A stretch of 9,914 nucleotides of DNA from the NCBI GenBank assembly GCA_001803565.1, contig MHDQ01000027.1, positions 1-9,914 on the forward strand, in the 5' to 3' direction. The notes under the pieces were generated by a model. It saw only the letters and a program-made list of their open reading frames with translations. It was not told the origin of the DNA and did no database searches. Below, piece after piece: positions 5,678 through 9,313 of this stretch (positions are counted from its first letter, which is position 1; each line of letters opens with the position of its first letter). This DNA comes from Nitrospinae bacterium RIFCSPLOWO2_12_FULL_45_22 (lineage in GTDB: Bacteria > 2-12-FULL-45-22). The position numbers and the translations under genes were made by a program.

Positions 5678-5719
5678 GCCGGAAAATTTAACCAGGATAA
5701 ACATTCAGTAAACTTGAAA

Positions 5720-6361
5720 ATGATGTTAATTGATCTGCATATCCACACCAGCCCTTTATCGCCTTGCAGTGCCCTGGATGCCGATGAAGCAATAGAAACA
5801 GCTAAGGGGCTGGGTCTGGATGGTATATGCTTTGTAGAGCATGATGCCATCTGGCCTAAAGGCGAGATTAAAGCCTTTGCTCAAAGGCATAAATTTTTGA
5901 TCCTGAGGGGTATGGAGGTAAATACCAATTATGGCCACATAATGGTCTTTGGTCTGGAGGAATATAGAGAAGATATGTATTCCTTCGATAGGCTTCTAAC
6001 TTACATCCAGAGTGTTAATGGGGCTACCATTATCGCCCATCCGTTCCGAGATCCGCAATATCTCCGCGGTGGTTATGGTATTATGCATTGGGGCCTTAAG
6101 CCCGAAGATGCCAGCCAACGCCCCGTCTTTCACCTGGTAGATGCAGTAGAGGTATTTAATGGGCATAATAGCCCCGGGGAGAATGGTTTAGCCTTAGAAG
6201 TGGCCCGACACCTGGGTTTAGCTATTACCGGTGGTAGTGATGCCCATACCAAGGAAGAGATAGGGGCCTATGTCACCCTCATTAAAAATAAAATAGGCGA
6301 TGAGGAAGATTTGATTAGGGAGATAAAGCTGGGCAAAACAGAAGCCCAGAGACTATTTTGA
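5720..6361 (+). CDS. PHP-domain metal-dependent phosphoesterase
   Basis: The 213-residue protein begins MMLIDLHIHTSPLSPCS. Metal-ligand motifs of the PHP family are all visible: DLHIHT (5-10), VEHD (39-42), GMEVN (64-68) with Glu66, His73, AHP (106-108), VEVFNGHN (143-150) and the closing GSDAH (172-176). Together they form the trinuclear metal site of a stand-alone PHP phosphoesterase. Known relatives hydrolyse nucleotide 3',5'-bisphosphates, RNA ends or histidinol phosphate; length and motifs fit the general PHP group rather than HisK or the DNA polymerase domain. The substrate is not predictable. Two adjacent ATGs (5720, 5723) are possible starts; neither has a clear ribosome site, and the only AGGA is 23 nt before the first. 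It follows the nucleotidase by 42 bp and precedes the zinc-finger/SUMF1 gene by 31 bp. Confidence 0.85.
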   Translation: MMLIDLHIHTSPLSPCSALDADEAIETAKGLGLDGICFVEHDAIWPKGEIKAFAQRHKFLILRGMEVNTNYGHIMVFGLEEYREDMYSFDRLLTYIQSVNGATIIAHPFRDPQYLRGGYGIMHWGLKPEDASQRPVFHLVDAVEVFNGHNSPGENGLALEVARHLGLAITGGSDAHTKEEIGAYVTLIKNKIGDEEDLIREIKLGKTEAQRLF

Positions 6362-6392: not shown

Positions 6393-7484
6393 ATGCTAGG
6401 AAAGAGCGGGGATAAATTTTGTTGCTATTGTGGAGAGACCAAGGGGGGTAGATTTTGTCAGGTATGCGGTACACCGCTGCTTAGAACCTGCCCCCAGTGC
6501 CAGGAATGGGTGCCGGTAGGGGCTAATTATTGTTATTTTTGCAGAGATGGTAAGCATCCTGATCATAGCCATAAGAAAGACCTGGTAAAAATCTTTAAGG
6601 GATTCAGGATTAATCATACCCTGCTAAAGATCAAATCTGAATTAGAGTTGATAAATGGCAGGTCTTTCCCCGAGATCTATTGTCCTATATGTGGCCAGAT
6701 GCAACTAAGTTTTGAAGATACCTTCAGATGCTCCTTATGTTGGGGGCTATATATCTGCAAAAGGCATAAGGTGGGTGAGGATTTCTTATGCGAATTATGC
6801 GCTAGCTCCCCAAAAGATGCTCACGAGGCCTGGGGAAAAAGGAAAAATTATGACTTCACCCATCATCCTTCAGGAGCTATAGGGAACAAAGCAATAGGGA
6901 CTTTTCAAAAAGATATAGTATTGGTACCAGCCGGGGAGTTCTTGATGGGTGATGAACGCCAGTCAGTAGGGCTTGATTCTTTTTATATTGATAGGTATCC
7001 AGTAACCAATGCCCAGTTCCGCCTCTTTGACCCAGGCTATACCTACCCCGCAGGCCGTGATAACTACCCGGCTACTACCCGGCTTACCTGGTACAGAGCC
7101 AATGCTTATGCCCGGTGGGTAGGTAAGCGACTCCCGTCTGAGGAAGAGTGGGAAAAAGCAGCCCGGGGTACCGATGGCCGTTTATACCCCTGGGGAAACC
7201 AATTCGATCCCAGTCGGTGCAATACTAAAGAATCGGGTATATTAGGCTTCACGCCGGTAGACCAATACCCCACTGGTCAAAGCCCCTATGGGTGTTTTGA
7301 TATGGCGGGTAATGTGCTGGAATGGACTGCTTCCTGGTTTGATGAACAGAGAAATTTCATGGTAGTAAAAGGCGGTTCCTGGGATGATTTTGACTATGTA
7401 GCCCGCTGCGCCAGTCATATGGGCTACGAACACTTTTATCCCATGACTATGATCATAGGGTTTCGTTGTGTAAAGGATGCTTAA
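6393..7484 (+). CDS. Multi-zinc-finger protein with C-terminal SUMF1/FGE-like domain
   Basis: The 363-residue protein has three parts. A double zinc ribbon occupies 10-50 with CxxC pairs at C10/C13, C22/C25, C33/C36 and C47/C50. A second zinc module (97-136) has pairs C97/C100, C113/C116, C122/H125 and C133/C136, giving eight possible ligands. From about 174 to 363 lies a SUMF1/FGE-sulfatase (C-type-lectin-like) domain: LVPAGEFLMGD (177-187), FYIDRYPVTNAQF (197-209), GKRLPSEEEWEKAARG (244-259), YPWGN (265-269), GCFDMAGNVLEWT (300-312), VKGGSW (325-330) and IGFR (355-358). The region after GGSW lacks the paired active-site cysteines and CNR motif of true formylglycine-generating enzymes, so sulfatase activation is doubtful. 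No signal peptide is seen. No clear ribosome site precedes the ATG. The stop is 2 nt before the VWA start, so they are probably partners. Confidence 0.85.
   Translation: MLGKSGDKFCCYCGETKGGRFCQVCGTPLLRTCPQCQEWVPVGANYCYFCRDGKHPDHSHKKDLVKIFKGFRINHTLLKIKSELELINGRSFPEIYCPICGQMQLSFEDTFRCSLCWGLYICKRHKVGEDFLCELCASSPKDAHEAWGKRKNYDFTHHPSGAIGNKAIGTFQKDIVLVPAGEFLMGDERQSVGLDSFYIDRYPVTNAQFRLFDPGYTYPAGRDNYPATTRLTWYRANAYARWVGKRLPSEEEWEKAARGTDGRLYPWGNQFDPSRCNTKESGILGFTPVDQYPTGQSPYGCFDMAGNVLEWTASWFDEQRNFMVVKGGSWDDFDYVARCASHMGYEHFYPMTMIIGFRCVKDA
7472..7477 (+). promoter_or_regulatory. Ribosome binding site that fixes the VWA gene start
   Basis: AAAGGA lies inside the last codons of the SUMF1-like gene, 9 nt before the GTG at 7487. 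It supports the GTG over the in-frame TTG at 7466. Confidence 0.65.
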
Positions 7485-7486
7485 AG

Positions 7487-9313
7487 GTGATCAAGTATCG
7501 CTATTCCAAATGGGATGATCAGCAAGGGGAGCTTTTTTTAGATATTGACCACTTAATGGATAGCCTGACTGATCCATTCCTGGAAGAAGGGGACCTAAAT
7601 AGGCTCTTACAGCAACTATGGCAAAAGGGTTACCGGGATCAGGAAAACCGTCAATATCCCGGTTTGCTGGATTTGCTCCAACAACTTCAGCGGAAAAGGC
7701 AGGATTTATTGGAAAAATATGACATTAATTCTCTCTATCAAAATATTAGGGAGGCACTGGAGAACCTGACCAAAGAAAAAAGGGAACAGTTAAGACAATT
7801 GCTAAGAGGATTAAACGAGATGCTAAGGGAGAGGATAGCGGGAGCTAAACCTGATTTTTCGGGGTTCATGGAAAGATATGGTGCCCGGCTCCCGGAGGAA
7901 TACCAGGATATGAGCCTGGACGACCTGATAGAGAGATTGCAAAGGGAGGCGGCCCAAATAGAGGCCCTGATGGATATGCTGCCCAGCGAGCTAAAAGATG
8001 CCCTGGAGCAGATACTGCGACAAGCCTATGCCAGCCTGGATCAGGCCACTAGAGAAGAAATAACTGAGTTTGCCCGGAATATGCAAAAACTATCCACTTT
8101 ACAGCACTATCCATTCTGGGGTGAAGAGCCCCTGGACATCGGGCAGGCACTTATTTTAAAGGAGCAATTAGACCGGATAGAGGTATTAGAGCGAACTATA
8201 AAAGAGATCCGGGATCGGAGAAAGACGCTGGACGATCTTGATCCTGAACTGGTAAGAAAAACGCTGGGGGAAGAAAGCTATCGTTATTTAGAGAACCTAA
8301 AAACGATAACCAAAAAGCTAGAAGACGCTGGCTATATATGCCGTGAGGGACAAGGGTTTAAGATGACCCCTCAGGGAATAAGAAAGATTGGTCAGAAGGC
8401 ATTACGGGATATCTTTTCTCAACTCAAAAAAGATCAGTTTGGTTCCCACCCTACGGCTCTTTCAGGTATATTAGGGGGATGGAGGATTGAAGAGACCAAG
8501 AGATACGAATATGGCGACCCACTTGATATCTATCTCCCTGATACCTTGAAAAATTCCCTGATTAGAGAAAGGGGGATGAGCCTGCCTATACGCCTTAAGG
8601 CAGAAGATTTTGAGATTTATAAGCGAGAGTACCAGACCCAAAATGCCCTGGTATTAATGTTGGATATGAGTGGTTCTATGGATAGATACCGTAAGTTCAG
8701 TGCCGCCAAAAAGGTAGCATTGGCTATAGAGCGTTTGGTTAAGGATCACTTCCCCAAGGATAATTTTAAAATAGTGGGATTTTATACCCGGGCAAGGGAG
8801 ATAAAGATAGAAGATTTGCCCTATGTCCACCCTAAGCCTTTTGGATTTACATCTTTTATGTTGTTAGATTATTTTGGTTCCTCCTGGGGTCCCTTATCCG
8901 TAGAAATCAACTCCAGGGAGGCAGCTTCTCGCCAGATCCCGGAGGCTTTTACCAATATCCAGGAAGGGTTAAAACTCTCCCGGCAAATACTCTCTAAGCT
9001 GAAGGGGTGTAATAAACAGATTATTATGGTTACTGATGGAGAGCCCACTGCCCACCTGGAAGGTAACAATATTTACCTCCAGTATCCCCCCAGTAAAAGG
9101 ACTATCCAGGAGACCTTAAAAGAAGTAAAGAGATGCACTCAAGCCGGCATCATCATCAATACTTTTATGCTGAGTAAAGATCCATTCCTGGAAAATTTTG
9201 TCGATCGCCTTACCCGCATAAATAAAGGTAGGGCATTCTATACCACTCCAGAAAAGATCGGAGAGTATATCGTGGTAGATTATCTCTGCCGCAAACGTAA
9301 AAAGATATTCTAA
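7487..9313 (+). CDS. VWA-domain protein with coiled-coil and winged-helix-like regions
   Basis: The 608-residue protein starts at a GTG, giving an N-terminus KYRYSKWDDQQ that resembles known bacterial VWA proteins beginning RYxYSRWDGxQ. Residues about 60-245 are charged, Leu/Glu/Lys/Arg-rich helices, probably coiled coil. About 263-310 looks like a winged helix (KKLEDAGYICREGQGFKMTP). From about 386 to 600 lies a von Willebrand A domain with a complete MIDAS: DMSGSM (393-398: Asp393, Ser395, Ser397), Thr489 in FTNIQ, and Asp517 in MVTDGEP. There are no transmembrane segments or signal peptide, so it is cytosolic. In known systems such proteins bind metal and act with MoxR or Mg-chelatase-type AAA+ ATPases; none is in this window. 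It follows the zinc-finger/SUMF1 gene by 2 bp. A TTG start at 7466 is possible but lacks support. Confidence 0.86.
   Translation: MIKYRYSKWDDQQGELFLDIDHLMDSLTDPFLEEGDLNRLLQQLWQKGYRDQENRQYPGLLDLLQQLQRKRQDLLEKYDINSLYQNIREALENLTKEKREQLRQLLRGLNEMLRERIAGAKPDFSGFMERYGARLPEEYQDMSLDDLIERLQREAAQIEALMDMLPSELKDALEQILRQAYASLDQATREEITEFARNMQKLSTLQHYPFWGEEPLDIGQALILKEQLDRIEVLERTIKEIRDRRKTLDDLDPELVRKTLGEESYRYLENLKTITKKLEDAGYICREGQGFKMTPQGIRKIGQKALRDIFSQLKKDQFGSHPTALSGILGGWRIEETKRYEYGDPLDIYLPDTLKNSLIRERGMSLPIRLKAEDFEIYKREYQTQNALVLMLDMSGSMDRYRKFSAAKKVALAIERLVKDHFPKDNFKIVGFYTRAREIKIEDLPYVHPKPFGFTSFMLLDYFGSSWGPLSVEINSREAASRQIPEAFTNIQEGLKLSRQILSKLKGCNKQIIMVTDGEPTAHLEGNNIYLQYPPSKRTIQETLKEVKRCTQAGIIINTFMLSKDPFLENFVDRLTRINKGRAFYTTPEKIGEYIVVDYLCRKRKKIF

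Follow-up and report, generated by a model that had tools for sequence, protein, structure and literature searches.

PHP metallohydrolase, zinc/SUMF1-fold and VWA genes form a lineage-restricted three-gene unit without an adjacent AAA+ ATPase gene

The locus analysed here raises the question whether neighbouring genes for a zinc/SUMF1-fold protein and a VWA protein belong together and, if so, which ATPase they might serve. The original prediction treated them as a two-gene unit and pointed out that VWA proteins of this kind usually work with a MoxR-type AAA+ ATPase, of which it saw none nearby. Indeed, no AAA+ gene is present in the window, by which we mean the whole stretch of DNA analysed, an entire contig of 9,914 bp. 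The features concerned are:

5714–6361, plus strand: PHP metallohydrolase gene of CehA/McbA type (PF13263, PF02811, NF038032), upstream of the SUMF gene
6393–7484, plus strand: zinc/SUMF1-fold gene (SUMF), ATG 6393 to TAA 7484, 363 aa
6420–6542, plus strand: two zinc ribbons, C10/C13/C22/C25 and C33/C36/C47/C50, seen in the sequence; DZR match weak (E 1.4e-4)
6681–6800, plus strand: eight-ligand zinc module C97–C136 (C97-x2-C-x12-C-x2-C-x5-C-x2-H-x7-C-x2-C136)
6909–7475, plus strand: SUMF1/FGE-fold domain without the FGE cysteine pair (PF03781, E 3.7e-41; fold match to FGE structures)
7472–7477, plus strand: AAAGGA ribosome site of the VWA gene, 9 nt ahead of its GTG
7487–9313, plus strand: VWA adaptor gene, GTG 7487 to TAA 9313, 608 aa
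7544–8212, plus strand: N-terminal helical bundle, residues 20–242 (AlphaFold model)
8270–8422, plus strand: winged-helix-like segment, residues 262–312 (AlphaFold model; aligns with a ChlD-like protein)
8477–8635, plus strand: strand-helix-strand segment ahead of the VWA core, residues 331–383 (AlphaFold model; profile match to an AAA+-VWA protein)
8663–9037, plus strand: MIDAS D393-x-S-x-S397, T489, D517 (sequence, comparison of relatives)
8825–8938, plus strand: long-loop insert of 33–35 aa between the MIDAS motifs, common only to L042, L045 and L077

The predicted coupling of the SUMF and VWA genes is real, with a gap of 2 bp between the SUMF TAA ending at 7484 and the GTG at 7487 and with the ribosome site of the second gene placed inside the first. 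The unit, however, comprises three genes, the PHP gene at 5714–6361 having been overlooked; from comparison with homologues, its start is probably ATG 5723. The same PHP-SUMF-VWA order is found in G001, the only other genome of the phylum of the window's genome (G000) that was examined; the two assemblies are 68% and 85% complete, respectively. G001 is from the same order as G000 but from a different family, and its contig was deposited as a groundwater 'Nitrospinota' MAG. Of the genes in the 20 kb that surround the trio in G001, only PHP, SUMF and VWA match the window (52%, 52% and 57% identity), and the unit has therefore been kept while its flanks changed. The originally predicted pair itself, VWA and SUMF, recurs there (57% and 52% identity), tightly spaced in both genomes (2 and 19 bp), with no window gene outside the trio nearby, so that the pairing is not accidental. 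G000 also holds a second PHP-SUMF pair (L052, C207; 50% and 42% identity) without VWA, and the PHP-SUMF arrangement is hence kept in three loci (window, G001, G000:C207). Co-occurrence across phyla was not borne out: among the best 80 of at least 534 confirmed loci of the VWA family, a SUMF or PHP gene lies beside VWA only in G001, and neither these 80 loci nor a search of 386 genomes with the zinc N-terminus yielded a third genome with the full trio. PHP-SUMF-VWA is thus a real, conserved, lineage-restricted three-gene unit of known families. Elsewhere in the window, 389–1594 encodes a Get3/ArsA-type ATPase with a C-terminal HSP20-like domain, and a C-terminal piece at the contig edge (3–269) resembles, by eye, a xanthine-dehydrogenase-type molybdenum subunit; RNA features looked for in the window were not found.

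The PHP protein of the window reaches 90.3 bits against the CehA/McbA model NF038032 (cut-off 80) and the C207 copy 95.8 bits; the G001 homologue, at 74.7 bits, lies slightly below the cut-off. The metal-ligand motifs HxH, EH, E, H and DxH are present and invariant in the three copies compared. The window protein therefore resembles CehA/McbA PHP metallohydrolases in passing the family cut-off but differs from them in its genomic partners.

The zinc/SUMF1 protein contains three zinc modules rather than the two originally counted, namely two ribbons and the eight-ligand module, followed by the expected SUMF1 domain at residues 173–361. No Pfam model reaches its cut-off on the eight-ligand module, which also stands ahead of SUMF1 domains in G356 and in two proteins of G246 and thus travels with SUMF1 domains across unrelated genomes. 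A search of 386 genomes for the full zinc N-terminus yielded none besides G000 and G001, and a PDB sequence search with it matched only ribosomal L32 ribbons (E 0.006). One of the G246 proteins (G246:C18, L176:5273-11929; 1398 aa) carries further C-terminal regions behind the module and the SUMF1 domain and is encoded next to a co-oriented VIT-VWA gene, a second zinc-SUMF1/VWA neighbourhood whose VWA is unrelated. As regards the SUMF1 domain itself, support for the FGE fold is modest since the predicted model that matches FGE structures has a pLDDT of 66. The closest PDB sequence match of the protein is SUMF2, the human FGE paralogue, which is catalytically inactive. An active formylglycine-generating enzyme was rejected because the copper-binding cysteine pair (C336/C341 of human FGE) is missing: in GGSWDDFDYVARC no cysteine lies between GGS and RC. 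Hence, the window protein shares with SUMF1/FGE the fold and PF03781 but differs in the missing active-site cysteine pair and in the three added zinc modules.

The VWA protein has the predicted VWA domain with an intact metal site (PF13519, E 1.4e-8), in which the MIDAS is complete; across 45 relatives D393, S395, T489 and D517 are invariant and S397 nearly so. The proposed winged-helix-like segment is supported by the AlphaFold model (helix 262–280, two short strands, helix 295–312), whereas the proposed long coiled coil is not: in its place the model (pLDDT 84) has ten helices of 11–25 residues each. A profile of the VWA family aligns with an AAA+-VWA (ChlD-like) protein of G000 over the winged helix (wHTH), the pre-VWA segment and the VWA (probability 99.3, E 4.7e-20), and TIGR02442 matches at residues 344–439. 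A PDB sequence search with the protein gave no match, and the best PDB fold match of its model is NorD in the NorQD complex, although the E-values of other VWA domains are not much worse. In the NorQD complex, a finger of the VWA domain goes into the ATPase pore (PMC9976466, PMC13036017). Residues 331–383, as modelled, may represent such a pore finger; the matches given by VIA-align fall on the VWA cores of many proteins and are thus uninformative on this point. The protein resembles the NorQ-NorD and CbbQ-CbbO systems in its VWA with MIDAS, helical N-terminal domain, pre-VWA segment and best fold match, but the window operon lacks an ATPase, adds PHP and zinc/SUMF1 partners, and its VWA comes from another sequence family. 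CoxE was rejected as a near relative, the profile comparison giving no match.

The family to which the VWA protein belongs, Rv0958-Rv0959-like where a ChlI-like AAA+ gene is adjacent, is widespread and AAA+-linked. Of the best 80 loci, 35 have a ChlI-like AAA+ gene directly upstream of VWA and seven have it at another place in the locus; it is absent from 31 with at least 3 kb of upstream DNA, and the remaining seven did not permit a judgement. Where a short-loop VWA is unlinked, 16 of 17 genomes encode the ChlI-like AAA+ in trans, in exactly one copy each (E about 1e-200). The window VWA, L042, L045 and L077 make up a long-loop clade of four members (SH-aLRT 92, open fork), in which the MIDAS motifs are spaced by 96–98 residues versus 63 (one 68) in the other relatives measured. 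The canonical ChlI-like AAA+ was not found in three of the four long-loop genomes (G000, G001 and G386), a search of G000 giving remote matches only, so that the usual ATPase of the family is missing from the assembly of the window's genome as well as from the window; its presence in trans was rejected for the G000 and G001 assemblies. The long-loop group has therefore parted from the usual motor of its family, with the completeness of G000 (85%) and G001 (68%) as the main caveat. G033, the fourth long-loop genome, does have the canonical ATPase, on a contig that breaks off within the beginning of another VWA; a sequence on C162 that probably continues this other VWA is short-loop. Compared with ChlI/ChlD-type pairs of a VWA and an adjacent ChlI-like AAA+, the window VWA is of the same family by sequence but carries the 33–35-aa insert and has no such ATPase gene at its locus or in the G000 assembly. 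No conserved neighbour was found for the ATPase-unlinked VWAs of Chloroflexota or for L077/L045, and the literature searched held nothing on the function of Rv0959/COG4867. G001 carries a second, short-loop family VWA split into two frames of 128 and 500 aa (G001:C16, L043:9800-11688), possibly by a frameshift or an assembly error, and a divergent ChlI-like AAA+ (513 aa) with a short VWA (364 aa) on a distant family branch (G001:C31, L044:7059-10142).

A CbbQ/NorQ-type ATPase is encoded in all four long-loop genomes, on contig C34 in G000, and the copies of G001, G386 and G033 are 66–73% identical to that of G000. The CbbQ genes of G000 and G001 have no VWA neighbour. Two distant genomes, both long-loop, possess tight operons in which a PHP gene precedes CbbQ and a NorD-like VWA:

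L242:7374-11195 and L243:1915-6818: PHP-CbbQ-NorD-like operons of G386 ('Tectomicrobia') and G033

The PHP proteins of both operons are homologues of the window PHP (44% identity in G033). In short-loop genomes, three CbbQ loci are CbbQ-NorD without PHP, so that PHP stands beside CbbQ-NorD in 2/2 long-loop versus 0/3 short-loop loci, the counts being small. Since the PHP family occurs in the operons of G386 and G033, CbbQ is the best ATPase candidate for the window VWA and may be its partner. This family of hydrolases is thus brought together with an AAA+/VWA chaperone by two different gene arrangements, with SUMF-VWA and with CbbQ-NorD.

The reading we prefer, at a probability of roughly 37%, is that an AAA+/VWA chaperone remodels or metal-loads the PHP hydrolase with the help of the zinc/SUMF1 protein, the ATPase being encoded elsewhere. 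The VWA protein would use its pre-VWA finger segment to dock into an AAA+ ATPase ring, for which the CbbQ/NorQ-type protein of C34 is the best candidate, and would hold its client through the MIDAS; ATP hydrolysis would remodel or metal-load the PHP metallohydrolase, and the zinc/SUMF1 protein would sit between hydrolase and adaptor as a subunit for recognition or as a scaffold. MoxR/VWA pairs insert metals into or remodel metalloenzymes (PMC9976466, PMC13036017). We favour the chaperone reading because the trio is kept in G001 despite changed flanks and G000 holds a PHP-SUMF paralogue pair, because the VWA protein aligns with an AAA+-VWA protein, finds its best fold match in NorD and has relatives that pair with AAA+ ATPases, and because the same PHP family occurs in PHP-CbbQ-NorD operons and the CbbQ of G000 and G001 is without a VWA neighbour. 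It is weakened by the wide occurrence of CbbQ (9/12 genomes), which has its own NorD-like partner in five other genomes, by the location of the long-loop VWA of G386 and G033 apart from PHP-CbbQ-NorD, and by the restriction of the trio to two genomes; moreover, no PHP enzyme is known to depend on a chaperone. That PHP, zinc/SUMF1 protein and VWA make up an unnamed metallohydrolase-maturation or sensing module, whose long-loop VWA switched from a ChlI-like to an in-trans CbbQ-type ATPase, is somewhat doubtful. If true, a PHP metallohydrolase would join the short list of MoxR/VWA chaperone clients, a VWA adaptor would be shown to change its ATPase partner and a SUMF1-fold domain without enzyme chemistry would gain a job.

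The confinement of the trio to two genomes of one order, the relatives of the VWA that stand alone elsewhere and the PHP-SUMF copy without VWA would also fit a lineage-specific operon of convenience, in which the three genes are co-expressed and their functions separate. We consider this doubtful, as the SUMF-VWA spacing stayed tight although all flanks changed, PHP-SUMF is found in three loci, and two distant genomes likewise have PHP in an operon with an AAA+/VWA pair. The failure to find the canonical ATPase in G000, G001 and G386, and an insert beside the MIDAS that is unique to the long-loop clade, would agree with a VWA that is independent of an AAA+ ring and binds the zinc/SUMF1 protein via MIDAS and insert, the latter protein recruiting PHP; such an ATPase-free binding complex is unlikely given that the protein still has the pre-VWA segment that is typical of VWAs with AAA+ partners and MoxR-type ATPases are encoded in trans. 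A role as sensor or effector has been suggested for vWA and FGS (SUMF1-fold) proteins of MoxR-vWA ternary systems (PMC7159879, PMC10907252), and the trio could accordingly be imagined as a conflict (defence) module in which SUMF1 senses an invader, VWA relays the signal and PHP is the effector nuclease. Like the systems with FGS effectors (PMC7159879), the window combines VWA and SUMF1-fold domains within a single locus, but here they belong to separate genes, and neither a MoxR ATPase nor a third component (VMAP/iSTAND/FtsH), a peptidase or a retroelement gene is present among its genes. With housekeeping neighbours, no match of SUMF among defence models and marginal matches of VWA and PHP (E 0.001–0.005), a role in defence is quite improbable.

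G000 encodes a further AAA+/VWA set at another locus (G000:C157:8000-18000, L004, 786-9871), consisting of a MoxR/ChlI-type AAA+ (346 aa), a CooC-like P-loop ATPase and an AAA+-winged-helix-VWA protein (761 aa). The set adjoins a gene that resembles, by eye, CO dehydrogenase/acetyl-CoA synthase and might be a metal-insertion set for that enzyme.
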